Assembly: GCA_029959195.1 (NCBI GenBank)
Contig: CP114120.1
Location: forward strand, 310,001 to 374,000
Length of the DNA: 64,000 nt
Direction of reading: 5' to 3'
Source: Dictyophora rubrovolvata
Lineage: Eukaryota > Basidiomycota > Agaricomycetes > Phallales > Phallaceae
Shown here: piece by piece, positions 3,089-23,000 of the stretch
How the letters are laid out: each line of letters starts with the position of its first letter
How positions within the stretch are numbered: the stretch's first letter is position 1
The notes under the pieces: model-generated
The model's database searches: none
Told to the model about the DNA's origin: nothing
The model's input: the letters and a program-made list of their open reading frames with translations, nothing else
Position numbers and translations under genes: made by a program

Positions 3089-4113
3089 ATGTTGAGCAAA
3101 ATCACTCCTGCCTTTGAACGTTTTCCGCACGACATTTTCAGGGTAATCCATGTTCTACACCTATCTTTATACTTTGAAGTTGCACGGAGAAACTGAGTTT
3201 GAGATATGTAGAAGTACTATTGCCTCCCATACCCGCGTCGCATATCTGCCGTTTGTGAAGACATGCTCTCCTATCAGACCCTACAATGTGGACGTGCCTT
3301 ATGATTTCCAGGAACGAGCTGCAAATGAATAATGGAATTGCTTCGTCGGTCGGACTCTTTTATTAAGCGTCTTCCTCGTCATCTACATACGGGATGAGTT
3401 ACGACGAGACGATTTCCGCCCTCTTCCAGAAAATCCATCGATTCAGAATATTGCACGTGAACATTAACTTTTAGATTCGTTGACCTCCCACCTCTCCTTC
3501 AGGGTTTATAGAAGTATTGATCCAACAAGTTATCTCGCACCTTCAACAGCCCGCACGGAAGCTACAAACGCTCTCATTTTGGTACGAATATCTCGATTAT
3601 GACGAGAACTCCGGCCCAGATTACACAGTTGTAAAGAGGCTGCTTTCGGGAGATGCACCCAATCCCGAACGAATGCATCATCGGCTTTCCCGCGACTTCC
3701 GAGAATTAGACTGTCATGTATTCCATAATCTATTGGAGCCGCGTCTCGCTCTGGTTTTCGGTTTATTTTGGTCGTCTCCTTGATCTCCTAGCGTCATTAC
3801 CTCGTCTTAAATTGCTTTATCTTGATGTCCAGTTGGGTAGCGTGTGGCCTTATTTCAAACAACCTTCTGACCGTAAGGTCAGATTTAATATTGTCATTCC
3901 TGGAGAAGCTCACGCTCAATGTGGGCTTCGTGGTCGGGCTGACAGACTTGCTGTTGAAGCACGTAGCTTTTCCGTCGAAGGTCATGAGGTATATCGCTTC
4001 CCAGCATTATCGTCATTCCGAAGAGTCGCCGTCTGTATCCCAACTTCTATCTCGTGCACACTTTACGTCCCTTCATGTCAAAGCCTCCCGTTTATTTCTG
4101 TTGAAAGAGCACT
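3089..4113 (+). pseudogene. F-box/LRR-like gene, 5' part, split by a transposon
   Basis: The frame opens with FERFPHDIFR, the start of the F-box helix. It continues through degenerate F-box and leucine-rich segments closely matching the copy at 42615-43924, for example LQTLSFWYEY and the 'APNLK/HHRLS' block. Several frameshifts are visible, near the F-box at about 3140 and again near 3500 and 3780. Homology stops at 4113, exactly where the inverted-repeat element starts, and resumes on the same strand at about 22663. An intact member would be an SCF ubiquitin-ligase adaptor of about 570 residues. This copy is dead. Confidence 0.85.
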
Positions 4114-4161
4114 GAGGTGCTACGGTCAAAAGACGTCAGTCTTTTGACCGGCGCCTCAGGC
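4111..4161. repeat. About 50-bp hairpin (foldback) at the left transposon end
   Basis: CTGAGGTGC, three bases, GGTCAAAAGAC, a four-base loop, then GTCTTTTGACC and GCGCCTCAG: two nested arms pairing almost perfectly. A related stretch lacking the inner left arm lies at 36643-36715. Confidence 0.7.
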
Positions 4162-4352
4162 GATTAGACGCAACGCGTGATGTGTATGTAATATACTCTA
4201 ATCTACTATCTATCATGCATGCCATAATAACGTCCCACGACATTCCTTGAGCGTCCTGCGCTTGTCCATAAGCGTCCCCGGCTTGTCTGAATCCGGCTGC
4301 CGTTGTCCCACATCGTCCCCGCGTTGTCCCAGAGCGTCCCAACTTTCATTTT
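4114..4352 (+). repeat. Left terminal inverted repeat of the MULE
   Basis: Matches the reverse complement of 22379-22662, including the 24-base exact block at 4232-4255, a 'cgcttgtcc..ataagcgtc' block after it, and 'cgtcccaactttcatttt' at the inner edge. It is rich in GTCCC and GCGTC words. The outer 50 bp forms a hairpin that the right end does not have. Confidence 0.75.
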
Positions 4353-4873
4353 TTACACATCCACATCTGCGATCGACGTATTTCAAAGACGAAACTGTTT
4401 GTATTTATGGCTAGATTCAGAATAAATTATTTCGAAAGCCTAATAAATAGAATTGATCAAACGCAACCCTTGGTACATGAATTCTATGTGACATTGGTAA
4501 AGAATGAACATGTGTGATATAGCAAATAATGCATCGAGCAAAATATCGAAATATATGACAAAATCTACCTGTGAATATATTATGTTTATCTAATTTTCCC
4601 TGTGAGTCTCGAAAGATGGGAAATAATACTAAGTATTGCCCGGAGCTTTGATGAATGCATGATTGAGGGCCACTTTCCTTTTTGTTCGTCTCTGGGCTGC
4701 TGGAATATTTGAATCATCGACTAAACTGGGTTGTTTATCATTTTTAATGGTTATTGCTGGACTTGGACTTTTGCTATGGCCCTTAGAAGTGTTCTCAAAT
4801 GTCCAGGGGATTATCGGTTCCTGATCATGATGTAAGTTTAATTAACAAAGTCATTCAGGGGTCACTCACTAGA
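4353..4873. other. Subterminal MULE sequence without a recognised gene
   Basis: AT-rich sequence between the left inverted repeat and the first minus-strand open frame. I see no coding frame with a recognisable product. Confidence 0.4.
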
Positions 4874-5344
4874 TTAATGGAGTTTGCTCTCGAAGAGTTG
4901 GCTGTTACTGGCTTGCTTGAGCTTGTCTGTGAAGATTTGGTCATACTGAGTTTGGGAGATCTGGGAATTTTTGGGGATGTGTCTGCAATATTTGTGATAA
5001 GTAGAGAGTTTGTCTAGATCATGCGTTAATTCCTGTTTCAATTCTTTAATTATATTGTGTTTGATGTTACGTACAGTTTGTATTTCACTCTGAATTTGTA
5101 GTTTTGGCAGTTCCAATGTTGTATCAAGGATCTGGTGAGATGTTCGAAATGACGTCCAATCCTGTTGGTTTTGGTATATCACAGCCGCTTCCATCGTCTT
5201 CCAAGCCTTTTCATGCAGGATTTCAGGACGTACAATTTGTTTCTTACTATGAAGTGAATAAGCAGCGTCCGGAGTCGTTTTGAGATAATATGCAAGACAA
5301 ATGTAAGCGAAAATACTTTGGCCAAGACCTAATACTGTATCCAT
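4874..5344 (-). CDS. Hypothetical 3'-terminal exon of a MULE internal gene
   Basis: A 156-codon open frame, rich in K, Q, E and L, that probably forms helices (for example KELKQELTHDLDKL). Its 5' side continues the direction of other minus-strand coding scraps upstream. On that side the host sequence is broken by a single LTR (5484-5890) and the chromovirus (6044-13173), and coding-like text such as DDTVLDARMQTYSQDV is seen on the far side near 13190. I infer a large multi-exon gene carried by the MULE, downstream of its transposase. I do not recognise the product. Confidence 0.4.
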   Translation of the reverse strand: MDTVLGLGQSIFAYICLAYYLKTTPDAAYSLHSKKQIVRPEILHEKAWKTMEAAVIYQNQQDWTSFRTSHQILDTTLELPKLQIQSEIQTVRNIKHNIIKELKQELTHDLDKLSTYHKYCRHIPKNSQISQTQYDQIFTDKLKQASNSQLFESKLH

Positions 5345-5483
5345 GTTTGTTGAAGTCTCATCATGTGATAACAGTTCCCAGATGGCGATATGTTGAATAA
5401 TGTATCAATCGTGGCTGTCTAAAAGTAAAACATGACTGGTTATAAACTCAAAAGTCATTTGGCTATGTTTGTGAGTGGGCCAT

Positions 5484-5890
5484 TGTCAGGGTATGCTAGC
5501 ATCGTCCCCTTATTTTCCTTCATTTATCTTCAGTTCTGATTTATCTTATTCATTTCCTTATTTCTTGTATTTTATCCCATTTCCTGCATTCCCCCTTCCT
5601 TCCATATTCCCTTCTTTCCCTCTAACGGGTGCTGAGCACCCGTTCCCATCAGAGCCATGGCCTAGGCCCTGGCTAAAGATCCGGGACTGGCACATATCCG
5701 CACCCAGTCCATGAACTGAAGGCCGTGTATGGCCTTCGCCATTTTTTCATAGTATATAGTTAGTAGCCCTAGAGGAGGGATCTCTAAGTTTGTTCTCTTA
5801 GGATCCCCTCCCTCTAGGTGAGTTAGTATTTTTCCAAAATATATTTTGCTTAGGATCCCCTCCCTCTAGTCTGAGTGAGTAGCCCTAACA
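5484..5890 (+). mobile_element. Solo LTR of the chromovirus family
   Basis: A 407-bp unit beginning TGTCAGGGTA and ending CCCTAACA, flanked by the 5-bp target duplication GCCAT (5479-5483 and 5891-5895). It is the same LTR as at 6044-6449 but in the opposite orientation, and contains the TATA motif and the AAGTTTGTTCT motif at 5786-5796. It is a fossil left by LTR-LTR recombination. Confidence 0.9.
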
Positions 5891-6043
5891 GCCATGATGA
5901 ACGGAACACCATCCAATCTTCATGTAGAGCCTGTAGAACTATAGTTTTTGACAATAAATATCCTGTGTGGCTATTAGGTTAGCTCTGAGCATTGACAAGA
6001 TCTTTTGTTTGGGCAGACTCAAGTATTTTGAGAGTTGACTACC

Positions 6044-6449
6044 TGTCAGGGCTACTCTCTCAGACTAGAGGGAGGGGATCCTAAGCAAGATATATTCTAG
6101 GAATAATACTAACTCACCTAGAGGGAGGGGATCCTAAGAGAACAAACTTAGGGATCCCTCCTCTAGGGCTACTAACTATATACTATGAAAAACAGCAAAG
6201 GCCACACGTGACCTTCGGTTCATGGACTGGGCACGGATACGTGCCGGTCCCGGACTTTTAGCTGGGGCCTAGGCCATGGCTCTGATGAGAACAGGCGCTC
6301 AGCACCCATTGGAGGAAAAATGGGAATATGGAAGGAGAGGGAAATGCAAGAGATGGGATAGAATACGAGAAATATGGAAATAAATAAAATAGACCAGAAC
6401 CAAAGATAAATGTAGAAAAATAAGGGGACGATGCTAGCGTACCCTGACA
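6044..6449 (-). repeat. 3' LTR of the chromovirus
   Basis: Runs TGTCAGGGC to ACCCTGACA on the plus strand. Read in the element's sense it holds a TATA motif (about 6177-6183) and, about 30 bases on, the 11-base AAGTTTGTTCT (6139-6149). Confidence 0.9.
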
Positions 6450-6496
6450 CCACCCTCCCCTTCAACCAGGCGTTGACCTGATGCCTGCAGTCTCTC

Positions 6497-6723
6497 TCAA
6501 GGTCGGATTGGCCGTGGGCAGAATAACAGACCATTTATTGCACGTGGTGCATTAGGATGCTCTTGATAGAATTTACCCAAGAGATCAGGGGCTGCAAGGT
6601 CCTTCTCTGGTACCCATTGATCATGCTCCGGGCCATAACCTTCCCAATGAACCTTGAATTCAAGTTTGCTCCGTTGGACTCGACTATCCAAGACCTCTTC
6701 CACAACATAATGTTCTCCATCAT
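6497..6723 (-). other. Chromodomain at the 3' end of chromovirus pol
   Basis: VEEVLDSR..., KVHWEGYGPEHDQWVPE and the closing helix form a typical chromodomain, the module that in chromoviruses steers integration to modified histones. It is a fossil part of the element at 6044-13173. Confidence 0.9.
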
Positions 6724-7074
6724 CGTGAATCTCAGGAGGAGGAGGGATTCAAGAACGACGACCTGGGATGGTGTCTTCTGGTCTCAGACGTAACTTCACA
6801 ACATGAAAGACTGGGTGAAGCTGTGACATCGATTTGGGTAGGAGTAGGCGATACGAATGAGAGCCAACTCTTGCTGCTATAGGAAAAGGCCCTAGGAAGC
6901 GATGGGACAACTTCGCTGAAGGCCTGGTAGTGTGAATGTCACTGGCATCAAGGTAGACCTTGTCACCAATCTTATATTCGGGAGTTGGGAGTCATTTACG
7001 ATCGTAGTACTTGGCCATGTCGTCCTTGGCCTTGATGATAGCAGCTCTGGTTTCTTCGATAGTCGATGACATAT

Positions 7075-7675
7075 TATAAGGGATTTGTTTTAGATTTAGA
7101 ATAAACTTGACTCCTAATAAAATATAAAAGAGTTTTTGTTTAGGGATTGTTCAGCAACTAAAAGTCCTGTTATTGAAGGTGAGACACTTGAAAGAAGATT
7201 TGAACTTAAGAATTAAGTTCAAATTAGTAGAGATAGATAGGGACTTATTACTAAGTCCTTGAGAATAGAGAAAGATAAGAGGAAAAAAGACTAATTTGAT
7301 TGGTAAGCACTTTGGTGCACAACAGTAGTTACAAGATATCTTATTTACAAGAAAAATGAGCCCCTATTTATATACCTTGAGCAAGTATAAATAGCTCCAA
7401 ACATTAGTAAGAGAAACATTATGTGAAAGATAAGAAATTACTTAAAAAGGAAGTGAATGAATAATAGTGGATCAGGGAAAATTATAGTGAGACAGGGAAG
7501 TGGAGAGAGATGATAAGAAAATAAAGGGGTTCCTGGAACTAAGTCATCTGACTGTTCCTGAAAGATAAGATACATTACAAATAAAAGATTATTAAAGCAA
7601 GCAGGAACTAAAAAAAGAATAAAGGAAATACTTGTTTTTAGGTAGATAAGGGAGGAAATCATGAAATACATGACA
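7075..7675 (-). mobile_element. 600-bp LTR-like element nested in the chromovirus
   Basis: About 98 percent identical by eye to 19884-20482. In the minus sense it starts TGTCATG, ends CTTATA and contains a TATA box (tatataaatag). It has no coding sequence and interrupts the chromovirus near the end of integrase. The flanks share only a weak ATAT-type duplication here. It belongs to a second LTR family. Confidence 0.75.
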
Positions 7676-7689
7676 TATATGGTCTTTGA

Positions 7690-8990
7690 ACTCATTGACA
7701 GACTTGATTTTCGATTCGGGGATACGAGGTTCGAAGCCCATACGCGGTTGACGGCCCATGTCCAACTCAAAGGGTGTCACTTGTGTCGCTGAGTGTATGT
7801 GGTTGTTGTATGCGAACTCAGCCATGGGAAGCAGCCTATCCCAGTCATCCTGTCATTCCGAGGTGAAGAGTCGGAGGTACTGTTCGACTTCCGCATTAAC
7901 CCTCTCGGTCTGACCATTGGTTTGGGGATGGTAGGCTGTGGACATGGCGAGTTGAATGCCAAGGAGTCGAGAGAGTTCCTTTGTGAAGCGTGCCACAAAC
8001 TGTGGCCCCCTGTCGGAAATGATCTTGTCAGGGAGGCCATGCAGCTTCCACACATGTTGCAGGTATAGACTCCTGAGACCAGATGCGTCGATAGTGGTGA
8101 ATGTGGGAATGAAATGAACTTGTTTGGTTAGCGAATCTACCACAGAGAGGATCACATCATACCCATTAGATTCTGGGAGTTCGACGATAAAGTCGACGGA
8201 TATGAACTCCCAAGGACAATGTAGTGTCTCGGTGGGGTGCAACTTGCCAAAGGGTGCGTGGCAAGCTATTTTTGTATGCAAGCAGAGATTGCAGGCTTCG
8301 ACGTATCGTTGGATGTACCAAGACACACCCGGCCACCAAAAGGTTCGAGAGACCAGCTCCAGAGTTTTGAAACGACCAGGGTGACCACTGACTTTGGTAT
8401 CATGATGATGTGTAACAATTTCTCGTCGTAGATCCTCGACATTGGGAATGTAGATCTTACCACGGTAGTAGAGAACATCCTGATCTTCGGACCATTCACT
8501 GGTATGCACCGAATGACCACTGAGAGCTCGAAGAGAAGTGACGGCTTTGGAGACGCTATCCTCATGCTTGCCTTCTCGATTGGCCTTGTAAATCTGACGT
8601 AGGAAGTCTTCCTCTTCTCCTTGGATACAGAATGTTTGCAGGGCATTGATTGCAAACATCTCGGGTCGGATAAGGGTGATCCCTTGGTTGTCATCCTTTC
8701 CCGATCCGTGATCTGCACGTTGAGAGAGGCTGTCAGGCTTCCCCATTGACTTACCCGGGATGTGCTGGAGGGTGAAGTTGAATTGAGCAAGATAGACTAA
8801 CCACCAAGCGTGTCGACGATTGAGGTTGCGAGCGGTCATAAAGTACTCCAAGTTCTTATGGTCAGTGCAAATGTCAATGGGGTGACTTGCACCTTCGAGA
8901 AAGTGTCGCCATTCTTCCAGGGCTCGAATTATTGCCAGCATTTCCTTGTCATGAATCTCGTAGTTGCGTTCTACGGTGATATGCGCCTCT
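7690..8990 (-). other. RNase H and integrase region of chromovirus pol
   Basis: RNase H text (LAIIRALEEWRHFLEG, CTDHKNLEYF) is followed by the HHCC zinc-binding segment (HHHDTKVSGHPG, CNLCLH). Then comes the integrase core with its D, D, E landmarks (SVDFIVELP, ISDRGPQF, QTERVNAEVEQ). It is a fossil part of the element at 6044-13173. An AT-rich stretch of about 330 bp between this and the reverse transcriptase region may be a further insertion that I cannot classify. Confidence 0.9.
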
Positions 8991-9331
8991 CAGGAGTACG
9001 CAGAGATCCAGGGAACCAGTGTTTATGTGTGTCGAGGGAAAATAAGGGATTTTTAGATAGATAGAGAGAATTGTATAATATAATCCATAGATAGAAGATA
9101 TATTTCTTAAGGCTCAACTGAGGGAAAAGTTGCGAAAAATGGGGGGAAACTCTCTCTCTCTGATGATATTTTTGTTTAACTATTGGTTATTATATACATG
9201 GTTTATGAGTAAGCAGGAACAAGGGACTTAAGTGTCTAATAAGTATGAAGGAAAGGCGAGAAACTGCACTCAATACGAATCAAATACTAATTGCAATATA
9301 GTCAAATGCTGACCAAACGCGCCATTGCTAA

Positions 9332-11398
9332 TTAGTCTATTTCCACGTGATCTCCGTGTAAGCCGTTCCAGTCCTCAACAACGGGGCTCAGGGCTTTCGA
9401 GAAGAACGTGACTGGGTGCCACTTACTGTCCTCATCCGATAACTGCGAGAGAACCGCGCCAGAAGCAAAGTCGGAGCTGTCTGCCTCAACTTTGTAAGGT
9501 TTAGCAGGGTCTGGGATGAGCAAGATGGGAGCCGAAGTGATTGAGAGCTTGAGTACATCGAAGGCTTGCTGACAATTGTCAGACCAGATGAACAAGGTGT
9601 CCTTTTTGGTCAGACCGAACATTGGAAGTGCAATACGAGAGAAGTCTTTGATGAAACAACGATAGAAGTTAGCAAAACCGAGGAAGGATTGAACTTCAGT
9701 GATGTTTCTCGGGACAGGCCAGTCCCTAACACCCAAGACCTTTGCAGGGTCCATTTCGACTGTATTCTCGGATATGACCATCCCGAGGTACTCAATCTTG
9801 GTCTTGCAGAACTTGCATTTCTCCGCCTTAAGGTATAGCTGGTGCTCACGAAGCCGTTCGAGTATGCGTTGAGTAATACAATGATGTTGTTCCAAATCTC
9901 GTGTATAGATGAGGATATCGTCAATACACACGGCGATGACACCTTCTGAGATCATGTCCTCAAAGATTTCGTTCATCATCGTCTGGAAGGTGGCTGGACT
10001 GTTAGTAAGGCTGAAAAACATCACCAAAGGTTCGAAAAGGCCTCTATTAGTACGAAATGCGGCCTTCCACTTGTCACCTTCCTTTATCCACACATTGTTG
10101 TAGCCCCATCGAACATCGAGCTTCATGAAGTAGCGGGCACCCTGTAACTTATTGACGAGTTCCGAGATAAGGGGCAATGGATAATGGTTCTTGATCGTCA
10201 TCGCATTCAGAGCCCGGTAATCCTGAATGAGACGAAGGGAACCATCCTTCTTTTTGATAAAGAAGACCGGTGAGGCCATTGGCGACTTCAAGAGTCGGAT
10301 CTGTCCTGATTTGAGGTTTTCCTCTAGAAATGCGTCCAACTCGGCCTGTTCCTTCAGTGACAGCGGGTAGATCTTACTGGATTTGGGCTCTGAACCAGAG
10401 ATGAGTTCTATTGGGTGATCCCATTTCTTTGACATCGGTAGTGAATCAAAGGATTCTTTGGAAAAGATGTCGTCAAAGTCATGGAATTGTTCAGGCACAA
10501 TATCGCGAAAACCCTTGGGGGCTGGAGCATCTGAGTTCTTGGCGTGAGCTTGAGCAAGTCTTTGTGAAATGGTCTCGGTTGTGCCAACGTGATGGAACTC
10601 AGGTCCAGTGTCAACCATCAAAATACCAAAGAGTCGATTGCCGTCCTCAAGCTGGAGCTCATCTTCCATGTCTGCCAGATCAGGCATGTCAGGATCTTCA
10701 GCCTCGGTGTTGTCAAGCTTCACATCTTCAGACGTTCGGATCTGTCAAAAGGAACATTTAGTGCAGCGACCCGAAGGCTAGCTGGGCGCATAGGAACGAC
10801 ATTGGGGACTACAACACGTCAGTTCTACCTCTCCAGCAGTATAGTCAATCACTGGGTTGTGGGCCTTGAACCAGGGTAGCCCCAGTAATAAGGGATATTT
10901 TCCAAGTGCGGTAACAGCAAATAGTATGCGTTCAGAGTGGGACTGATACCTCATAACCAGATCAACCACATGTGTGATAGCACCGGCCTGGTTGGGTGTA
11001 CCATCAACATTGAATACAGGAATAGGTTTCGGGAGTTTGACAGTCGGGAGTCGATGTCTCTCAACGAACTCACAGTCCAGGAACATACTACTAGCATCCA
11101 TATCAAGCATGGCTTTGCTGGTGATCAAATCTCCTGTGTCAATACTCTGGAGCTCTACTGAGATTTCAAGTTTCTGAGTACCAGTGGTGGCTGTGAGTCG
11201 ATATTCAGAGGGTAGTGACTTCCACTTCAAAGTCGAGAGTTGTGGAGGTGGCGGCATAGAAGAAGGTGTAGGGAGAGGGGGGTTTTTAGGAGATACAGCA
11301 GGGGTAATAGGATTCGAATTACTATCATCATTTTGTTCACGATCTATGTACAAAACATCGAATCTATTGAATGTCAGCAATGAGGGTGTATCCTTCAC
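9332..11398 (-). other. Protease and reverse transcriptase region of chromovirus pol
   Basis: The aspartic-protease-like segment is near 10800-11200. The reverse transcriptase palm is near 9600-10300, with DYRALNAMTIKNHYPLPLI, FMKLDVRWGYNNVWI and the active-site CIDDILIYTRD. The sequence clearly belongs to the Ty3/Gypsy group rather than Copia. It is a fossil part of the element at 6044-13173. Confidence 0.9.
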
Positions 11399-12614
11399 TC
11401 GTCGCCTTCCTGAAAATCCTCTGTTGCTACCGATGCAGGAGTCTCTTCTTCCTCTGTTGGTCCAGGCCCTGCACGACTCTGCGCTTCTGCAACATCCTTT
11501 TGGGCAAGGAGCAGTTCAACAAGGTTGTCAATCTCATCTGTGTTCATGAAACGAATGTCATGCGTGTGAGGACAATCACGCATGAGATGCCCAGCTTGTC
11601 CACAACAGTAACATCTAGTGGATTCCACGGTCATCTTCGATGTGTGGCATCAACATCCATTGGGTCATGACGTTGTTGAGGAAGTTGAACCAGAATTGAT
11701 AGCCTAGGCGGAGCAGCAGCAAATCCAGGAGCAACTGGCCTAGGAGGTGGGAATGGAGGTGGTTGGTACTGGGGGATAGTGGGTCTTAGAGGCAGGAAGG
11801 GTGTCAGTCTAGGACGAGACATAGGAGCCATCATTAAGGAATTAGGAGTCGACAGGGTTGGGAGTTGTCGACGTCGAGTGGCACTGAAGGCTTCATTTGC
11901 TCTTCTATCTTAGTCAAAAACGCGCGCAGCCTTGACCCAGCCTTCGAAATCTTCATATGTGGGTCGGCTCTGCATGGTAGCGACCTTGGACTGAATTGTC
12001 GGGTCTAATCCTTGTCGAAAGTGCGTTGTGATGGCGAAGCCATCCGTGAAGCCAGCACGTTCTATGAGGACATTGAAGGAGTCCACATAATCCTCTACAG
12101 TTCGACCTCCTTGAGCATATCTGCTGGATAGGAGGAGGTTGAGGGCATCATCATGTTCGGTTAAGGGCAGAAATTCCTCTTTGAACTTGAGTCGGAATTC
12201 TCCCCAAGTTGCGAAAGGAATGACACCTGCGAGGTACTTCTGTAGCAGGCTATTAGCAAAAACGTGGGCATGGCCGTCGTTCATATACGATAGTGTCCAA
12301 ATGATCATTTCTTGGTCGGTCACGAAATCCTTGCTACATGTGCTCATATAGATCTGGACAGAGTTCCAGAACATGCGTCCTTTGTTTCTATCACCATTAA
12401 AGGACTGAGGCACTGCAGGATGGGTATTACAAGAATTTCGTGAATCTCGTGTGGAAGATGGAGCCAATGCTCGGACAGGGGGAACATTGGTGGGTTGAGG
12501 GTTTACTGGGGGTTCTGACGGAGAGTCAGATGGGAGTTGAGGTTGAAGAAACGGTTCGAGACAAGATAGGAGTTGTTCGAGTCGAGTGTTGCACGTAAGG
12601 AAATTTTGTTCCAT
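11395..12614 (-). other. gag region of the chromovirus
   Basis: The capsid-like segment lies near 12614-11910 (for example SRYAQGGRTVEDYVDSFN). The Cys-Cys-His-Cys zinc knuckle CYCCGQAGHLMRDC is near 11570-11610. It is a fossil part of the element at 6044-13173. Confidence 0.85.
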
Positions 12615-12826
12615 AGCCGCGAGGCGTTGCTCTAGATTCAGAGTAGCCTGGTCGGGTTCTATGATAGTAAAAATAGCCTAGGTGCACAGTAAGAAGGATG
12701 GGAAGGGTCAAGTTATAGACGGAGCATGAGGAAGGACTCAAGATAGAACGAGTCGTTGTTGAGGACAATTTTCTGAAGGTGAATGTTGATAGAAATGACC
12801 GGTCCCAGGGTAGAAGTTTGTTCTAC

Positions 12827-13173
12827 TGTCAGGGCTACTCTCTCAGACTAGAGGGAGGGGATCCTAAGCAAGATATATTCTAGGAATAATACTAACTCAC
12901 CTAGAGGGAGGGATCCTAAGAAAAAACAGCAAAGGCCACACGCGGCCTTTGGTTCATGGACTGGGCGCGGATACGCACCGGTCCCGGACTTTTAGCTGGG
13001 GCCTAGGCCATGGCTCTGATGAGAACAGGCGCTTAGCGTCTGTTGGAGGAAAAATGGGAATATGGAAAGAGAGGGAAATGCAAGAGATGGGATAGAATAT
13101 GAGAAATATGGAAATAAATAAAATAGACCAGAACCAAAGATAAATAAGGGGACGACGCTAGCATACCCTGACA
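12827..13173 (-). repeat. 5' LTR of the chromovirus
   Basis: The same LTR family as 6044-6449 and the same orientation, next to the target duplication CTACC at 13174-13178. Just inside it (12814-12824) is an 11-base primer-site candidate complementary to a motif in the family's LTR. Confidence 0.9.
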
Positions 13174-13179
13174 CTACCT

Positions 13180-14540
13180 ACATCCTGGCTGTATGTCTGC
13201 ATTCGAGCATCCAAGACTGTATCATCCAGAATGGCAGGCCAATGTATAATCCCAATCTAAAAATTGTGAACATTGGTTAGTATACAATGATCATACTAAA
13301 TAGACGATACCTGAGAGGAATAAATACTCCTGTCATTAAGACATTGAGTTTTTTCAAAGAAATCAAAGGTTTCAACAACAATATTAGTAGAGGCAGTCTC
13401 ATTGGCCTTGTAAATAATTTTTGAAGGGATTTCATACTCAAATGTGCTTTGGGTTTCATTGATGGCATTTATCCATCCAGGATAATAGAGGCCATCTCCC
13501 GGGTATTTCCATATGTGCCATTAGCCCACTTCCAAGCCATACAAGAAAGATTTGTTGAGTGGGGTCAGAATAGAAGGTAGTGGTGGTAACTTTATACTGC
13601 GACGTCTAATTTTAACGGCCAAAGCAACATTCATGGGGAATTCTACAAGCCTGAGATTGGGGGATGTCGGGTGAGATAACGGAGAAGATGGGGTTGAGGT
13701 TTGAGACATAGGTGTGCCATCCTCAGGTGTTTCAGGCACATTCATTGGCATTGGTGTGAGCTGACATCTAAATTTAGCAAAACGACATCCTATATCACAA
13801 TGAAGTTCAGGTATGCCATTTACAGGCATCCTTGCAAATGTTTCATCTTTGCCCCAGCAAAGGTCACTACAAAACTATAACACATATATACTGCAATTGA
13901 CTCCATCCGCTTGTTGGTCATTTTGAATAGTCTAGTGATATGTCAGTAACTCTGTCATACATATAGAAATTCCCTCTCACCACTGCATTGAAGTAATGCG
14001 CTTGATTAATATCCCATTCTTGAGGAAACACAGTAGTTTTGGGGTAGTATTGACCATGTTCATACTCCAGAACTCATTTGACATGCTTCAAACAAATTAA
14101 TAAAAGCTAAATCAAATGATTATAAATATGTACCTTTAGAATCTCAGTATGTTTGCGCTTGAGTGTTGTAGCGGCACTATCATACATTTGAATTTCATGT
14201 TGAGGTGGGCGGACTGTAACCAAAATCCAGTGTGGTATATGGCCTCGTCCCAAAAGGAACCAGGGCAGGAGAACCAAGTCTTTTTCAAATATACTACACT
14301 GTTAATTTGAATCAGTATGGGTCTGAATTTGTGCATTAAGTTTCATCTTTGGAAACCAAAATTTCCTTGGTGCACGAGGCTTGAAGTTGTTGGACACTGC
14401 TTGGGATGACATTGTGTCTATCACAAGCATGTCTGCAATCACAAAATTAGGAATATTTGAGCCTATACCTTTCAGATGTATACATTCCTTCTCAATTAAT
14501 AAAAGATATACTGTCACGTACCAAAATCTTCCTAATAAGG
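13180..14540 (-). other. Hypothetical multi-exon MULE internal gene, degenerate
   Basis: Coding-like minus-strand text appears in pieces separated by GT-AG gaps: YPGDGLYYPGWINAINETQ and KANETASTNIVVETFDFF near 13300-13490, a Pro/Ser/Thr-rich linker (TPMSQTSTPSSPLSHPTSP) near 13690, and CPGSFWDEAIYHTGFWLQ near 14210-14270. I do not recognise the product. It lies downstream of the MULE transposase and is cut by the chromovirus at 13173, with likely continuation at 4874-6043. Several stops suggest it is dead. Confidence 0.4.
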
Positions 14541-14639
14541 AAATGTTCCGATTTTTGATTCAAAGCGGAGTTTTAAAACTACTAAAAACTTAACCGACAC
14601 ACTACAGTCTCTAGAAAACAAAACTTTACAAAAAAAAAG

Positions 14640-15014
14640 ATGGCCGCATTTTTATTTCACTATACATCATCAATCTCCTTGCCCATTCCAGCATCCCCCT
14701 CCGAGTCATTACCCCCCTCCGATGATGAATCTATATCACCTTTCCATTTTTCACCTACTAGTCCAAGGATATACGATTTGGATTTGCATACAACTCTCTA
14801 TATTTATAGTTCCCAGTATGCAAGTCTCGACATCGATGAAGAAACATACCTCCCAAAGTTCCCTCCACCTTATATTTGTCAATGTAGAAGTTCGGATTTG
14901 GTTCACCCCAGTCTCATGTTTGGAGAAAAGGTCTATATTGAGGAACAACTAGATTGGTATACGATTATCAATGTTTATTCTACTCCCAAATCAGCCATAC
15001 AAGACTCATATTGA
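14640..15014 (+). CDS. Hypothetical AT-rich open frame
   Basis: A 124-codon frame on the strand opposite the MULE genes, preceded by an A-rich run. It starts with an S/P-rich segment (SLPIPASPSESLPPSDDE) and then reads like folded protein (DLDLHTTLYIYSSQYASL). I do not recognise it. With the frame at 15376 it may be one gene or a decayed insertion. Confidence 0.3.
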   Translation: MAAFLFHYTSSISLPIPASPSESLPPSDDESISPFHFSPTSPRIYDLDLHTTLYIYSSQYASLDIDEETYLPKFPPPYICQCRSSDLVHPSLMFGEKVYIEEQLDWYTIINVYSTPKSAIQDSY

Positions 15015-15375
15015 ATTTGGTTAGTGATACAAGATGGGTTTGAGTTTACATTTATGGTATTAGACATACCAAGTTGTTGGGTTGTCATGAAAGGCATGAG
15101 AACGCAAAAACTTAGCTCTTATAGACCAGCAAATCTCATTCCTAAAGAGCCACATGTTTCCCATTTTTTACCTCATTCGTCGGAACCAATTTCACTCCCC
15201 TCTTCCCCATCCAGACGATCCTTCCAGAAGATCTGTCGTATTTATTCAAATCTTCTTAGACGAATTTAGGACAATAAACTTGTTTAGGATAAGCAATTAG
15301 ATTTATATTTCATCTCCTTCTTTCTTTTCTGGACATTTCATTAGCGCTTGAAATTTTTGGTTAACTCATATCATC

Positions 15376-15618
15376 ATGTCAGACAATAGCGATAATCCCA
15401 CTTCCCCTATTCCCCTTTTTCAACTCCCTTTCTTCTCTTTTGAATATCATTCTTCTCTCAGATTTGGACCTAACCCTGATTTCCTCTCACAACTTCGTGT
15501 TTACAATACTCTTGTCTCTGAAATCGATATCGATTCCTCCACAATGCTTCCGATTACTCCACTGCCACTAATAGAGATTACTATTCCTTACAATGATCTG
15601 GAGATAGAATATCCATGA
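15376..15618 (+). CDS. Hypothetical AT-rich open frame
   Basis: An 80-codon frame beginning MSDNSDNPTSPIPLF, similar in style to the frame at 14640. Coding-like text continues past its stop (NVMDKSYEFVKFLLTNR), which suggests a longer, decayed gene. Function unknown. Confidence 0.3.
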   Translation: MSDNSDNPTSPIPLFQLPFFSFEYHSSLRFGPNPDFLSQLRVYNTLVSEIDIDSSTMLPITPLPLIEITIPYNDLEIEYP

Positions 15619-16548
15619 GCTTTGACCCTGTACGAACGAACTAACATCAATGTCATGGACAAATCATATGAGTTTGTCAAGTTCCTTTTAACGAATCGTT
15701 AAGAAGAATCAATCTGGAGATTAGTTTTTCGTCACCAATTTCAAAGTTATACTCAATTCCTATTCATAGATGCACCTCTATCTGCTATCCCATCCCCTCC
15801 TGACTACACCGTTAGAAATCAAATTCTCCCTTCCTATTCCAATCTCCAATCCAATCTTGTTTAAGATCTGATATTGTTAAGTGTCACCATGGCTTTTATT
15901 GTTATGCCACAGCCACGAAGAAGAAGATCTCATTAACAAGAACTAGATTAGTAAGAAGTTTGGGATGGTAAAGTTATAGTTTTAAGTAAGAGGCAACACA
16001 AGAAGTGCCAGATGGTAATTTTGGTAAAGCTATGCTGGGAGTCCGGTTTCATCATTTCCTTTTGATCTCTTTTTCTTTTTCCTTTTGTTCTCTTTTGTTT
16101 CTCTTTTCTTTCAACATATTTCTCCTATTCTCCTTAACTACATATGTGATTCCCCTTTTCTGTAATTGTACTCCCTGTCATCCTCTCATGATATTCCTTT
16201 TCTTTTGTTTCTTTGTTCTCTTTTTGTTTTTGTTATCATGGTGAATGATGAGTGATCATTCCACTTTCCTCTATATTTCCAAATAGTATATATACTGCAT
16301 GTAAATAATTGTAACAGCAGCAATCTACCAGAATGGTTGTCTCAAGTTTTAGTTCAGTTTAAGTCAAGTTCAAGTCAAGGTTTCGTCTCTAGTCTATTTC
16401 TATGCTCACGTCTATTTTCTTTGGATTACTCTGAGTGAGGCCTTGGAGTATAAACTCAATGATTCGTATTGTCGTTGAAGCCTTACTAACTTTAACAGTT
16501 TTCTATTGCTGTATTATCAACAGTGTATTGTCATATCATTTTATTGCA
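15619..16548. other. AT-rich MULE-internal sequence
   Basis: Contains long T-rich runs (16060-16230) and a promoter-like tatatatactgcatg at about 16290. An LTR remnant was considered but no matching ends or duplication were found. Confidence 0.35.
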
Positions 16549-16953
16549 AATCCGGGCTACTCACTCAGACTAGAGGGAGGGGATCCTAAGTAATTATATT
16601 TTGGGAAAAATACTAACTCACCTAGAGGGAGGGGATCCTAAGAGAACAAACTTAGGGATCCCTCCTCTAGGGCTACTAACTATATACTATGAAAAATAGT
16701 AAAGGTCATACATGGCCTTCGGTTCATGGACTGGGCGCGGATACGCGCCAGTCCCAGACTTTAGCCAGGGCCTAGACCATGGCTCTGATGGGAACAGGCA
16801 CTCAGCACCCATTAAAGGGAAAAATGGGAATACGAAAGGAGAGGGAAATGTAAGAGATATGATAAAATGCGAGAAATATGGAAATGAATAAAATAAACCA
16901 GAACCAAAGATAAACAGAGGAAAAGAAAGGGATGATGCTAGCATACCCTGATA
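16549..16953 (-). mobile_element. Solo LTR of the chromovirus family, worn ends
   Basis: Matches the 6044-6449 LTR along its length, including the two 'agagggaggggatcctaag' blocks and the 'agaacaaactt' motif. The terminal bases have changed and no target duplication is visible, so it is older than the other copies. Confidence 0.8.
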
Positions 16954-17174
16954 CTCACACACACAAGATCTTAGGATCATTATTTTTTTGTTGTTGTTGT
17001 TTAGTTTGATATTGACACCCACACTCACTATATCATATATTCTCCCACCCTCTTCTCTACGAAATCAGTATCAGGACCCACTTCACGGAGACTAGATAGC
17101 CTCAAACAAAATATCTTTGTAGTTTTCTGATTGTATATATATAGCTATGACATTTAGCTATTATCTTCAGATCA

Positions 17175-18412
17175 TTACAACGCATTGATAATTGCATCCA
17201 TAATTTGACCAGTAGTTTGATAAGTTTGATGGTCAGTATTGAGGACTTTCCAGATCTGTTCCAGTCTGAATTTGTGCGGTTCTATTGAGATATTGAGGTT
17301 GCAATCTGCTAATAAATCATAACAAGGGGGTATCTCAAGACTTGGCTCCACAATTTGTGATACGGTGGATAGAGGACTTCTGGTATTGAGGGTCTGATTG
17401 GGCGTGTTATGATCCCATAATGATGCCATGCCAGGTGGCCATTTCGCAACCTGAGAGAACTATCCAACCTTGATAATTACAACTGAACAAAATTATATTA
17501 CTCACAATATGCCCTGATGCGAGCAAAATCTTGCAAGCGGGGTCCTCGGTATGTCCTAAATCAAGACATATGCATTTTAAGATATATGCATCCACACCTG
17601 GATCACTAAGAAATACAATCCAAAGCTCTTTCAGATAGCTTTTGACATGGTGGATAGGTATTGTTACGAGTGTAGGTGAATGGAACGGAATCTTCAAGAG
17701 TGAAACAAGGACCAAAAAAACCGTCCAAAATCTACATATGGATGTGTCCTTTTGTAGGCCAGTTAGAATAGGTTTGATGGGTAGTTTCAGTTTATTCTGA
17801 GGTAATTTAATACAGACTAAAGAAAAAGAGGAAAAGAGCAAACTCATACTGATATCAGGCAGTTTGTGAATCTTGCGAATGGCATTAAGAATCACCTAGT
17901 GTGATTCTTGACTATCTGTCTGAAGCTGTGATAGTTGTTCCATCAGATTAACAACTACACATTGAATACGATCTTCCAACTGATAATAGTTCCAAATAGT
18001 CCAATGAAACCATGATAGATTCATGAAAATCAGGCAGTGAAAGAAAGTTTGCCTGAATATTTTGTCTGTTTTGAAAGCAAATGATCCTTCCTGTCTCAGA
18101 ATTAGGTCAATGAATAGCTATTATACTGGACAAACATACTTCAGGATTCACTGATAATGTTAAAGCATTGGCTACTTCCTCCTCAAATTTATTCTCGCCA
18201 GATATGCCGATCCATATATGTTCACTATGCACCATACAGATGGAGTTTAGCAACTCCACAAATATCTCCATTTCTTCTATGTATAACGTATATGTTTCAT
18301 CATCCCAACAACTTAAATCAGCTGTGTATATCTCAGTTTCTTCCCTTTCTTCCGTTGTTAATACATGAGATGGTGTAAGTGTATCATCAGCCTGTTTGGA
18401 ACTCTTCGTCAA
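17175..18412 (-). other. Hypothetical minus-strand coding scraps inside the MULE
   Basis: Open pieces include 18412-18107 (acidic; DLSCWDDETYTLYIEEMEIF, LNSICMVHSEHIWIGISG), 17895-17407 and 17429-17175 (ISIEPHKFRLEQIWKVL). The spacing and intron-like gaps suggest one multi-exon gene reading on toward 13180, downstream of the transposase. I do not recognise the product. The broken frames suggest decay. Confidence 0.35.
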
Positions 18413-18959
18413 TGGTTTGAATGGTCATTTTAGTCTACATCGAATTGTGTTCAGGTGAGACTGCAGGAATAATGAATTCTTGGCTCAGTGCTGTCATTTT
18501 GGCCTTCATTGAGTTGGAAAGTGACTTTACGTCTCACCCAACACTGCTAAGGTGTGAGGGGGCTAATTTGAGCTGAACGCCCTGCCAGGATGTATGCACT
18601 GCAGACTAGCCATCATGAATCAGAAATCATAAACTGTGATTAATTATTATGACATACAACCAGAGTAAGTTAGTGAAGAGACATTGTAGGATTTCGTCAT
18701 TGGGGAAGTTAAATAGGTGTTGTGGTCTGGAGAAACCATGTTGACAGGGGTTGTTGTAGAGCACATGTTGGTATACTTGGGGTCTTCCAGCAATTCACGG
18801 ATTAAGTTATCCATTCAAGCATCAAATAGATAATCAGCAAATTGGCAAGGGACACTTGCCGATCCTGAAGGTCTTACCACTGTTCTTTGAGATTCTGTTT
18901 CTTACTCTACATATATGTGATGGTGAGAAATGCTATGTTCATATTCGTACAAGGATAAA

Positions 18960-20900
18960 TAAACTAACCTTGCCATCTCCAAACAGGGCCGTTTCTTTCT
19001 AACAAAATCACTACTTTCATATGGATATAGATGCGGCTGGTTTGTTCAAATTGCTCACATGGAGAGCAACGTAGGATGAACAGATCCACATGAACAGCAT
19101 GAACCCCTGGCTGACTGAGCGAGGCTCAATAGGAAAACAAAGAGGGTAGTTATTAATATGTACTTACTCATGGAAGCGTACACGATATGTTTGATCTACC
19201 ACCTTTTCTACCCAATTAGAATCCCATATATTATATGCCTGACCGATCTCATCTTGAATTTGCACTGGAACGGCCATCGGGTTTTCCTCGGTTTCTTCAT
19301 AATAAGGAAACCATTCATTGAGAATTATGGCTCCTAGTCTATCAATCCTGAGTGAAAAGGGATTTGTAAATATGATGCTTAGACAAGAGAAACAAACACC
19401 TACCATTTGTTTTTACGCATATCTAGAAAAACTTTATCAAAAACAAGGAATGTACTCTCTGCCCAGTTATTTGTATTGTTAGAGCCATCTCTTGTCTTCT
19501 CAGGAGGCAAAGATATATCTGTAATGTGCTCTAAGGTAAAATTAGAAAACTAAATTCATTGCATTCCTCAAAACCCAAGTACTTACCTAACCATAGCTCA
19601 CTGAACCAGTATGTATTGAAGTAATGGACCAAAAAATTATAACATTCAATTGAAGATTTTGCAGGAGCTCATGATGAAATTGAGCGATTACTTGACTTCT
19701 TGGTAACCCGTGCAAGAGGGTGTTCATCCAAACCCTCATCCTCTGAGTCAACCCCTTCCTCGCCCAAAACTTCCTCCGAACATACCATTCATAACTCTTT
19801 CATGAACCGTTCTTGAAAGGCAGGCCACTCATCCTTATTGCGGCATCTCTGAAGTCAGCGAAATACCCTAACTACTTTATAGGTATAAGGGATTTGTTTT
19901 AGATTTAGAATGGACTTAGCTCCTAATAAAATATAAAGGGGTTTTGTTTAGGGACTGTTCAGTAACTAAAAGTCCTGTTATTGAAGGTGAGACACTTGAA
20001 AGAAGATTTGAACTTAAGAATTAAGTTCAAATTAGTAGAGATAGATAGGGACTTATTACTAAGTCCTTGAGAATAGAAAAAGATAAGAGGAAAAAAGACT
20101 AATTTGATTGGTAAGCACTTTGATGCACAACAGTAGTTACAAGATAGATTATTTACAAGAGAAATGAGCCCCTATTTATACACCTTGAGCAAGTACAAAT
20201 AGCTCCAAACATTAGTAAGAGAAACATCATGTGAAAGATAAGAAATTACTTAAAAAGGAAGTGAATGAATAATAGTGGATCAGGGAAAATTATAGTGAGA
20301 CAGGGAAGTGGAGAGAGATGATAAGAAAATAAAAGGGTTCCTGGAACTAAGTCATCTGACTGTTCCTGAAAGATAAGACACATTACAAATAAAGGATTAT
20401 TAAAGCAAGCAGGAACTAAAAAAGAATAAAGGAAATACTTGTTTTTGGGTAGATAAGGGAGGAAATCATGAAATACATGACAATAGGTAAGGCAGTATGG
20501 CATTTGAGGTGTGCCATCAACTTGTCCACTATCCCCTTCTAAACGTTGGATTGCCTGGATAATATGAAATTGACAAATGTATACCCACGTTGACAGTTGG
20601 ACTAAAAATAACCAATGATAAGTGCATATAAGACTAAATCAAAATCAAGCAAACAAACACGCACATTGAAGTATAGTCACCAAAAACTTTCCAGGGAAGA
20701 GGGGTCTCGTGGTCCGAAGTGTGGCCCGAAAATTTGTTCGTTCTGGGAATGTGTCATTGACGATCTAAGGTAGTCACTACAGGAACAAAAACACCGCACT
20801 CACCGGCATACATGTGTTGACAGTGACTCAACTTTCCAGGGAGGATTGGCCTCATGGTCGTAAGCGGGACCCAAAAATCCAAAACAAAGGCAACTTACCT
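18960..20900 (-). pseudogene. MULE transposase, C-terminal part, degenerate
   Basis: Reading down the minus strand: CRNKDEWPAFQERFMKEL (about 19855-19800); a linker with two in-frame stops; then TDISLPPEKTRDGSNNTNNW and AESTFLVFDKVFLDMRKNKW; a 58-bp intron; IDRLGAIILNEWFPYY; another intron; and QPGVHAVHVDLFILRC joined to CSPCEQFEQTSRIYIHM near 19040. The last is a SWIM-type zinc-finger pattern in which the third ligand appears to be Tyr instead of Cys. TNN..E followed by SWIM is the C-terminal arrangement of Mutator-like transposases. The catalytic D/D/E residues should lie upstream, where a 600-bp LTR (19884-20482) interrupts and the sequence is too worn for me to place them. The protein is dead in this copy. 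Confidence 0.55.
19884..20482 (-). mobile_element. 600-bp LTR-like element in the MULE transposase
   Basis: A near-identical second copy of 7075-7675, flanked by a clean 5-bp target duplication ATAGG (19879-19883 and 20483-20487). It carries a TATA motif in the minus sense and no coding sequence. It is a young solo LTR of an unidentified family. Confidence 0.8.
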
Positions 20901-21372
20901 AAATAACATTCATCATTAATGCAAAAATAAATCTAAAAAAGGAATAATTAGTACAGATTGGCGAATATGATGTGTACACCGAGCATACATATAATAAAAT
21001 GGGGCATCATTGCCCATACCCCTAACCTGAAAACATGTTCACTCGGAGCCCCAATCAATGTCCAAAGGGTCTGAATCTAAGAACATGCGTTCAATTAATA
21101 ATAACAAGTTGTGTAAGCGAATCATACCTTTGAACGGCTCTTCTGCGGCCGTACATGCATGCTAACGACCCTTCCGAACGCGAATGCATGTGGCGCGTGG
21201 GTTGAGAATATTGCAATTGACTGATATTAACGGCATGTGTTCCGGACCATTCGGCACTTTGAAACTGCGGTAAGTAATCTATAATAACAACCATGTTCGC
21301 AACTACTTACACAAATACGATCAACACGACTTCCTTGATATTCTTTGTTCAAACTCGCTGCAACTCCAAGAA
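20900..21372. other. MULE-internal sequence between divergent genes
   Basis: AT-rich spacer between the minus-strand transposase and the plus-strand gene at 21373. It probably holds both promoters, but I can name no clear motif. Confidence 0.35.
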
Positions 21373-22011
21373 ATGACCCCTGTGAGTGTTCTTTAACAAT
21401 CCTATATGTACACTGATTAACACAAGAAACTTCAAGAACGGAAGGGCTCACAGCATGCACTCGGACTCAATAATCGTACTCTCCGATTCCGAGTCCAGCT
21501 CAATGATTGTCATTTCTGACGACACTCAATCTGACACCTCCTCTACCAGGGAGGTGAGCCGAATGCTAACGTCTACCAACCACCTGGCCTCGTCGGGCCC
21601 CAGTGGCAATCCATTGACTCCGACTCACTCACCTCCTATGACCAACAAATACCCGGCTGAATTATCCAGCCCTTCTGCCAGTCTGTCCGCTAGTTCCCAT
21701 GGAGAAAGGGACCCTAATAAAATGTATTTGGAGATGGAAGTGGACGATGACGGAAACTTGGTGAGGTGGGTATTCTCTGGAGAAAAGCTTCAATATACGC
21801 ATTTCCTACAGATCAAACAATTGTAAGTCTAAATCAATTTATGCTTTTCGTATTTATTAATTTCCATATTATAGGATGACCTACATTTCCAGAATTTTAC
21901 CAGAGCTGGCAGAGGTAAGTAGATGATCCATGCGATGATTGGCATGCTCGCTCACAGCCGTAGATGGTTTGACAGAGAAACAAACTTCTTGCTTCGTTTT
22001 TATATAACTAA
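21373..22011 (+). CDS. Small acidic protein with two SUMO-interacting-like motifs, MULE passenger
   Basis: Four exons (21373-21381, 21437-21822, 21875-21914, 21976-22011) with GT-AG introns give a continuous 156-residue frame. Near the N-terminus are two adjacent motifs, IIVLSDSE and MIVISDDT: hydrophobic cores followed by Ser/Asp/Glu, the form of SUMO-interacting motifs. A Ser/Pro/Thr-rich middle follows, then a folded-looking tail (KMYLEMEVDDDGNLVRWVF, RILPELAERNKLL). It lies between the divergent transposase and the right inverted repeat, so it is probably carried by the MULE. All frames are open, unlike the transposase. Function unknown; a SUMO-dependent nuclear role is inference. A later start at 21455 is possible. 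Confidence 0.5.
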
Positions 22012-22378
22012 GAATACTAAGTATATAGAAAATACGAGACAGATAGTCACGTACTTGCTTACCTTTACTAAAGCTGTTCCGCGGGATTGAAGTGCTACGC
22101 GACGCGCACAGAGGTTGGCGCGTTCTTTTCGTTTTCAGGAGTAATTGCGTTCAGGTCTAAGCATTCAAGCGAGCTGACTCTTAAGAAAACTAATAACATA
22201 ACAAGGTTAAATGAGGTGTCGTGTCGCGGACTCCACGATGTATTGCAGGTCAGGTAACTTAGGCTAAATACACATAAGGACCGTGACTGGGAAGTTCTCG
22301 ATATTTTTCCAGTATTTTCCTCAATAAACCCTGTCAATTAAGCCAACAATCATGCAAATTCATCGACAAACCGTCGAG

Positions 22379-22662
22379 AAAATGAAAGTTGGGACGGGAA
22401 TGGTTCCCGGACGCAACGAGAAGTGTTCAGGGTAGGGACGATAAATATCGAAAATCGAGACGCGAAGGGTTGATCTAAGGGTCGGGAAAGCTTTAAAAAT
22501 AAGACGGAAAGGGCTCGGTCATTGAGACCGGAAAGGTTGACGTGGCCGCGGGCAGAGACGCTTATGGACAAATGTGGGACGGACAAGCGTGAGACGCTCA
22601 AGGAATGTCGTGGGACACTTGCATTTTGCATCTATCATCTAGTGTGATCGTGTCGTACCTCC
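22379..22662 (-). repeat. Right terminal inverted repeat of the MULE
   Basis: Inverted match to 4114-4352. The exact 24-base block is at 22593-22616. It is longer inside than the left copy and lacks the outer hairpin. Confidence 0.75.
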
Positions 22663-23000
22663 AACAATTTCCACTTTTGACCTTCGAAGACATACCGAAC
22701 AAAAACCATATCAACCAATGATTATGTGTGCATACGGAATCTAGTGGATCTTCGGAATCCAGTAATGCATGCTCAGTTTAAGTCATCCTCTCGTATCACT
22801 CACATGGAACTCGGGATTGGAGAGCTATCGGGTGTTTATCATATCTTTCAAACATTTTTCGCTTCAATGTCGAGTCTGAAGTTTTTAGTTATCGGACCGG
22901 ATATTTCCTTCCTTCGTTACGGTGACAGTGGTGCGGACGAAATATGTCACTTAGCGTGCCTAGCTGCATGCGGCCCTTGGTGCCGAATCCCCGAGATCTA
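22663..23000 (+). pseudogene. F-box/LRR-like gene, 3' part, split by the MULE
   Basis: The same strand and family position as expected for the continuation of 3089-4113. It starts at LTFEDIPNKNHINQ (compare NHINQ / YINRF in intact members) and goes on through HMELGIGELSGVY and MSSLKFLVIGPDISFL. It matches 43690-43790 and 41270-41460 closely. Stops near 22725 and 22780 show it is dead. Confidence 0.8.

Follow-up and report, generated by a model that had tools for sequence, protein, structure and literature searches.

Mutator-like elements (MULEs) are recognized by catalytic residues in the order D-D-CxxH-E together with a SWIM zinc finger, the Kyakuja-Dileera-Zisupton (KDZ) transposons are large multi-gene elements of basidiomycetes with terminal inverted repeats (TIRs), and elements with long terminal repeats (LTRs) typically have TG...CA ends and 5-bp target duplications. 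In the parts of the published accounts drawn on here, MULEs are described as making target duplications of 8-11 bp and as carrying SWIM in many groups (PMC6446971), Zisupton and Plavaka as making duplications of 8 bp and 2-3 bp, respectively (PMC12730594), and plant MULEs as including members with an Ulp-type protease, which in melon and rice lies in either orientation to the transposase (PMC2528002). Here we describe a 64,000-bp stretch of the Dictyophora rubrovolvata genome (contig CP114120.1, positions 310,001 to 374,000; hereafter the window, numbered from its first base) in which a copy of an F-box-type gene is split by an LTR-like repeat that itself holds a large DNA transposon with TIRs. 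We are nearly certain that the locus arose by sequential nested insertion, the 146-bp repeat having entered the F-box copy, the transposon the repeat, and several retroelements and a 2.7-kb repeat the transposon.

Results

The genome surveyed comprised 28.2 Mb in 11 contigs, in which the window is C4:310001-374000, and all comparisons were made between copies within this one genome. Its gene structure and content of transposable elements would fit a basidiomycete-like fungus. The empty sites described below are paralogous sites in the same genome, which stand in for the allele of a sister strain.

The 5' part of the split F-box-type copy lies at 3089-4098 on the plus strand and its 3' continuation at 22667-22900 on the same strand, as determined by tblastn with window paralogues and by alignment of the joined flanks, with a genome search added for the 3' part; at the protein level, similarity to a paralogue on the plus strand extends to 22893. 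The flanks, joined with one copy of the 5-bp duplication kept, aligned with the paralogue at 42581-43784 as one high-scoring pair (71% over 1247 columns, E 1.8e-175) that spans the junction, with small gaps close by. When the halves were searched separately, the left one was found at four places in the genome besides itself and the right one at three (C4:277 kb, C4:398 kb, and C4:353 kb, the last within the window). All three were also left-half places, and there the halves adjoin in conserved order; the fourth left-half place, C4:275.5 kb, has the left half only. The alignments indicate that the two pieces were once adjacent on one strand, in agreement with the initial annotation of the window, which had read them as parts of a single gene interrupted by a large inverted-repeat transposon.

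Compared by tblastn with the open paralogues of approximately 585 aa, the split copy contains in-frame stops and frame changes and is therefore a pseudogene. The F-box identity of the family is weakly indicated by Pfam: F-box-like matched two of the four paralogues scanned, at 57368-58381 (E 0.00039, 20.6 bits) and 50424-52178 (E 0.0044, 17.2 bits), both below the cut-off of 24.3 bits, and gave no match in the remaining two. A further F-box-type C-terminal fragment, at 23022-23300 on the minus strand, adjoins the right half of the split gene in opposite orientation.

The gene sequence ends at 4098 and restarts at 22667, with the 5-bp duplication ATTTC at 4094-4098 and 22667-22671 as established by comparing the flanks of repeat copies. 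The sequence inside this duplication belongs to a dispersed repeat, of which the left part (4099-4216, plus strand) starts TGTTGAAAGAG and the right part (22639-22666, plus strand) ends CCTCCAACA; both were delimited from uninterrupted copies, the left one from L009-L013 and others. A genome search with 22380-22662 matched, besides itself, only through a 33-bp tail, which was found at five other places with 97-100% identity. In those five loci, the counterparts of window 4099-4214 and 22630-22666 make up a single unbroken repeat and share a few bases where they meet. When the window flanks were joined and aligned with these five loci, the repeat had the form TGTTGAAAGAGCACTGAGG...GTACCTCCAACA. 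With one 9-bp duplication dropped, the window repeat is 146 bp long; other two-ended copies measure 132-208 bp. The residues ..LLKE, which had been counted as part of the gene, fall almost wholly within this repeat.

The DNA transposon occupies 4217-22629, a length of 18,413 bp including later insertions, with its transposase and protease remnants on the minus strand and with borders common to three two-ended relatives that have 9-bp duplications. It begins GCATGCC... at 4217 and ends ...TTTTGC at 22629. The left TIR (4217-4255, plus strand) reads GCATGCCATAATAAC then GTCCCACGACATTCCTTGAGCGTC and resembles the start of other left ends, and the right TIR (22593-22629, minus strand) reads GCAAAATGCAAGTGTCCCACGACATTCC... 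as its inverted match. The exact 24-base inverted match between 4232-4255 and 22593-22616 noted in the initial annotation was confirmed and sits within a 36-bp inverted match of 92% identity (E 1.8e-6). A clean target duplication had been thought missing; it is present as ATCTATCAT at 4208-4216 and, in an exact second copy, at 22630-22638. The uninterrupted repeats L009-L013 cross the insertion point with a single 9-mer, ATCTATCAT in L009 and ATCTATCGT in L010-L013, and the sequence of L009 around this point is the same as that of the window flanks once joined. Where one insertion had been annotated there are two, nested, with their own duplications of 5 bp and 9 bp.

The initial annotation had also proposed aligning the ends as inverted repeats and seeking copies with the same termini. 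Relatives with both ends lie on C1, C11, and C5, and their borders are the bases equivalent to window 4217 and 22629. The C1 relative is 13.3 kb long with the exact 9-bp duplication ATAGAAAAA, and the C11 relative is 11.4 kb long (C11:273479-284847) with the exact 9-bp duplication TTCAGAGTT, a tenth flanking base matching here because the element itself ends in C. The C5 relative, of 10.5 kb, has its last 30 bp repeated, ends TTTTCG, and is flanked by the exact 9-bp duplication ATTATTGAT. Between the C1 and C11 relatives identity is 94-97%, whereas over matching blocks each shares about 66-85% with the window copy. The joined flanks of the C11 copy read ...MAPIAAGCAVVLKPSEFTPKTNALLEELFSKYLDRV, an aldehyde dehydrogenase stretch that is open across the site, and the joined peptide matched the Pfam aldehyde dehydrogenase family (E 4.2e-6, 26 bits against a cut-off of 23). 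An aldehyde dehydrogenase gene is thus split by the C11 copy, and this unrelated gene provides independent proof of an empty site.

Other ends were sought with a left-end pattern, which with one mismatch allowed was found at 160 places, compared to 54 for a reversed control. Without a mismatch it was found at 11 places among the matches listed, of which seven were examined as left ends (C1:585992, C1:2590223, C4:314217, C5:465051, C6:436634, C11:284835, and C11:1758609); C6:460157 was considered only as a candidate right end, and the remaining three are C1:1008554, C7:605700, and C11:1408600. With C4:2449640, which has one mismatch, eight left ends were examined in all. Four of them (window, C1, C11, and C5) could be paired with a right end, and all four copies have an exact 9-bp duplication. 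Two results tell against the nested-insertion reading: the other four left ends (C6:436 kb, C1:2590 kb, C4:2449 kb, and C11:1758 kb) had no recognizable right end or duplication in the DNA searched, and no recognizable gene was seen on inspection when the flanks of the C1 relative, or those of the C5 relative, were joined. The transposon end GCATGCCATAATA was also seen as two exact inverted copies, at C6:436634 and C6:460157, which are 23.5 kb apart and have no matching 9-bp flanks. The features that define the cut-and-paste class, namely fixed TIR borders in several copies, a constant 9-bp duplication, and empty sites, were all found, and the element is a cut-and-paste TIR DNA transposon.

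Four stretches of the window element must be omitted for the C1 and C11 relatives to be colinear with it: 5484-5890, 6044-13173, 14509-17179, and 19884-20482. The first is a solo LTR (TGTCAGG...CCTAACA) with the 5-bp duplication GCCAT, found by self-comparison, comparison with the relatives, and a duplication scan. The second, on the minus strand, is a gypsy-type LTR retrotransposon in which Pfam identified gag, reverse transcriptase (RT), RNase H, and integrase; it reads TGTCAGGG...CCCTGACA, has the duplication CTACC, and is absent at the equivalent place in the relatives. Within it, self-comparison revealed a solo-LTR-like repeat of about 600 bp at 7075-7676, for which the duplication scan gave no clear target duplication. 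Another such repeat of about 600 bp makes up the fourth stretch, at 19884-20482, where self-comparison and the duplication scan gave the duplication ATAGG. The third, absent there in the relatives, is a 2.67-kb repeat that holds a solo LTR at about 16551-16953; the duplication scan resolved no target duplication for it. That scan also lists chance 5-9-mers near the insert borders, and those at the repeat ends were chosen. By eye, the 14509-17179 insert and an insert in the C1 copy (L014/L015, reverse complement 9744-11210) have similar pairs of small open reading frames (ORFs), SDDESISPFHFSPTSPRIYDLDLHTTLYIYSSQYASLDID and SIDDSDCFRFVPPTPDVNLCDLDTQYYIYFTSYAHLNLD, and appear to represent a repeat family with ORFs of its own. 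Elsewhere in the window, at 59610-60828, two gypsy-type LTRs of 97% identity lie in inverted orientation with about 400 bp between them, and sequence resembling the interior of the gypsy element follows the first; this is a truncated or folded-back retroelement.

The later insertions total about 10.8 of the 18.4 kb. The unit had been called a very large composite transposon: it is indeed a large inverted-repeat transposon of 18,413 bp, but its size comes from these insertions, and a transposon bloated by later insertions is the better term. Conversely, window 20584-21461 faces 3.5 kb in the C11 copy, and a search for the exon that carries the first catalytic D gave at least two matches, in the C11 and C5 copies only and not in the window copy. 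Because that exon was not found and 20584-21461 faces the longer C11 stretch, the window copy is probably non-autonomous and dead.

What remains of its coding sequence includes a 176-aa open piece at 4874-5404 (minus strand; from the ORF list) that is conserved in the relatives, and transposase remnants recognized by comparison with the relatives at 19167-19799 (minus strand; including TDISLPPEKTRDGSNNTNNWAES) and 20489-20638 (minus strand; VYICQFHIIQAIQRL, with a CQFH motif). An Ulp1/C48-type protease fragment lies at 14110-14301 on the minus strand, where Pfam C48 gave E 0.002 and 18.4 bits, below the cut-off of 20.7; the exons of the C5 copy (E3) matched Peptidase_C48 with E 1.6e-8 and 35.1 bits against the same cut-off. 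An S/D/E-rich ORF near the right end (21386-21823, plus strand) has like ORFs in like places in C1 and C11, with a 66-bp DNA match to C11 at 73% and the rest of the likeness judged by eye. The minus-strand segments conserved between C11 and C5 are, in order, GMDTSWRNKNENRA, WMIDK, CQFHIVQAI, NNWAES, and a SWIM-like CSPCEQF...CVHM, with the Ulp1/C48 protease further downstream; the first conserved motif of the transposase series is GMDTSW. Pfam SWIM reached E 0.078, below its cut-off, in a scan of single transposase exons.

Alignment of the C1 and C11 copies over 7027 sites showed 318 transitions and 6 transversions; CpG accounts for 154 of the transitions and CpA for 135. Nearly all differences between these relatives (L014-L017; C1:566501-586500 and C11:265401-285400) are thus transitions, and roughly half fall at CpG. 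Two pairs of host F-box copies gave 129 transitions and 79 transversions over 896 sites and 133 and 81 over 933. For the gypsy LTR pair the corresponding counts were 15 and 0; solo LTRs gave 39 and 7 and 34 and 6, and the repeats of about 600 bp gave 18 and 2, 12 and 3, and 13 and 1, so that LTR comparisons fall between or alongside the patterns of the relatives and the F-box pairs. The aligned stretch of the 600-bp repeats at 7075-7676 and 19884-20482 contains no CpG. A process like repeat-induced point mutation (RIP) with a CpG signature is described for basidiomycetes in part of PMC4352252. The transition bias would fit either methylcytosine decay or such a RIP-like process, and CpG-biased transition decay makes divergence-based dating of the insertions unreliable.

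To the right of the split gene, Pfam identified a GMC oxidoreductase gene at 25909-27780 (minus strand) and a class-III aminotransferase gene at 29852-30694 (plus strand).

Discussion

The locus is an unusually clean and very well preserved, yet ordinary, nested transposon insertion. In the order of events that we propose, an F-box-type gene of the local family would first have taken in the 146-bp LTR-like repeat, with duplication of ATTTC. A cut-and-paste DNA transposon would then have entered the repeat, its transposase cutting with a 9-bp stagger and repair leaving ATCTATCAT on both sides, a chemistry that we infer from the length of the duplication and the inverted ends. LTR retroelements and the 2.7-kb repeat would later have entered the transposon, which would have grown to 18.4 kb and lost part of its transposase gene, and with it probably independent movement; the order of these steps inside the transposon may be as given. 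The result is an exactly bordered record of five layers (gene, LTR-like repeat, DNA transposon, gypsy element, and LTR-like repeat of about 600 bp), in which the outer layers have empty sites. It also defines the ends of a fungal transposon family with an Ulp1/C48 protease and the length of its target duplication. The record aids annotation and leaves the general view unchanged.

The 146-bp repeat is probably a solo LTR. It has TG...CA ends and a 5-bp duplication, as such elements do, and exact 5-bp duplications flank eight of the 12 copies examined, six found by script (L009 GTAAG, L010 CAATC, L011 ATCAT, L012 CAAAT, L052 ATCTT, and L056 CTTTA) and two by eye (the window copy, ATTTC, and L055, AAGAG). 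In the remaining copies, four of five bases agree at L054, none was found at L013 and L057, and L053 lacks one end. A genome search with the repeat gave at least 29 matches, several of which are pieces of a single copy. These matches supply the argument against a solo LTR, as among the 29 listed there was no pair of repeats at retrotransposon distance and no two 146-bp LTRs around gag-pol, and in the 10-kb region around one relative of 77% identity the repeat occurred once. Less likely but credible is that the repeat is a miniature DNA element or another kind of short repeat, for which speak the short copies, all of those measured being 132-208 bp, the lack of paired repeats or an internal region among the matches listed, and an internal inverted repeat seen by eye within the 146 bp. 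The ends TGTTG...CAACA form an inverted repeat of merely 5 bp, and together with the 5-bp duplications such TG...CA ends are typical of LTR elements, which favors a solo LTR over a miniature element.

With reasonable confidence, the transposon appears MULE-like, as suggested by the 9-bp duplication, the apparent D...D...CxxH...E and SWIM-like order, and the Ulp1/C48 protease. Several profile and similarity searches pull the other way. Pfam MULE (PF10551) matched neither single transposase exons nor the read-through E3 peptide, a failure that is weak evidence in copies so degraded; when the three PF10551-like loci of the genome were compared by tblastn with the window and with the relatives on C1 and C11, E values did not fall below 0.2; and hhalign with the two PF10551 loci above the cut-off gave probabilities of at most 0.3, compared to 1.3 for an integrase control, from profiles of 2-4 sequences and with low power. 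The third locus, L027, is below the cut-off and was used in tblastn only. In Pfam, the sole match of the read-through E3 peptide was ASXH at E 0.25, taken as chance. The transposon seems to work like a MULE but is not filed as one, because Pfam MULE did not match and neither tblastn nor hhalign to the MULE genes of the genome gave support.

These same failures would be expected if the transposon belonged to another superfamily making 9-bp duplications, such as KDZ, a hAT-like group, or an undescribed fungal group, and large multi-gene elements are typical of KDZ; we nonetheless regard such a placement as unlikely. Neither KDZ nor Plavaka Pfam models matched the read-through E3 peptide, and the duplications given for Zisupton (8 bp) and Plavaka (2-3 bp) in part of PMC12730594 differ from the 9 bp of all four two-ended copies, which falls within the 8-11 bp that part of PMC6446971 gives for MULEs, many groups of which have SWIM. 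A literature search, covering mostly journals open without subscription, found no paper on a fungal MULE with Ulp1, SUMO protease, or C48, and the main text of the MULE survey PMC6446971 contains neither "ulp1" nor "c48"; within the open literature searched, a fungal MULE-like element with an Ulp1/C48 protease may be undescribed. More speculatively, and in our view improbably, the C1, C11, and C5 elements could form an undescribed fungal superfamily of large, intron-rich transposons with GCATGCC...TTTTGC-type ends, 9-bp duplications, a transposase outside Pfam MULE and KDZ, and their own Ulp1/C48 deSUMOylating protease, which, if this were true, would perhaps counter SUMO-dependent silencing by the host.

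Two further explanations concern the split gene itself. That the F-box pieces were never adjacent, and that a rearranged gene cluster left them as fragments with no relation to each other, might be suggested by the richness of the region in F-box-type copies and fragments, one of them reversed at about 23022-23300, but this is very improbable, as the 5-bp and 9-bp duplications match at nested borders; we rejected it on the joined alignment, which crosses the junction, and on the coincidence of the paralogues of both halves at three places. A single insertion bordered at 4114 and 22662, as initially annotated, agrees with the fading of gene similarity near these positions and with inverted ends that fall inside them, but it is virtually untenable and is refuted because other, uninterrupted copies of the bordering sequence run past both positions, the very finding that the initial annotation had named as decisive against it, 4099-4214 and 22630-22666 being one dispersed 146-bp repeat with copies elsewhere in the genome, and the relatives beginning and stopping at the equivalents of 4217 and 22629 with 9-bp duplications.

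Compared with described systems, the inserted element at 6044-13173 shows no unusual feature for a gypsy LTR retrotransposon, having likewise gag, RT, RNase H, and integrase between TG...CA LTRs and a 5-bp duplication. The host transposon shares with MULEs the 9-bp duplication, TIRs, the apparent D...D...CxxH...E and SWIM-like CxxC...CxH order, and extra genes; it differs in its lack of a Pfam MULE match and of measurable likeness to the PF10551-like genes of the genome, and in a coding sequence divided into many short conserved segments. KDZ transposons are likewise large multi-gene TIR elements. The 8-bp duplication that part of PMC12730594 gives for Zisupton contrasts with the 9 bp in four of four two-ended copies here, and the read-through E3 peptide had no KDZ Pfam match. 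Ginger DNA transposons are, in part of PMC2836005, also linked with Ulp1, but they have a transposase like a gypsy integrase, and the only Pfam integrase in the window element belongs to the inserted gypsy. The MULEs of plants with an Ulp-type protease (KI-MULE, KAONASHI), as described in part of PMC2528002, likewise carry such a gene; KI-MULE is of non-TIR type with the protease reversed, whereas the element described here is fungal, has TIRs, and carries its protease and transposase remnants on the same strand.

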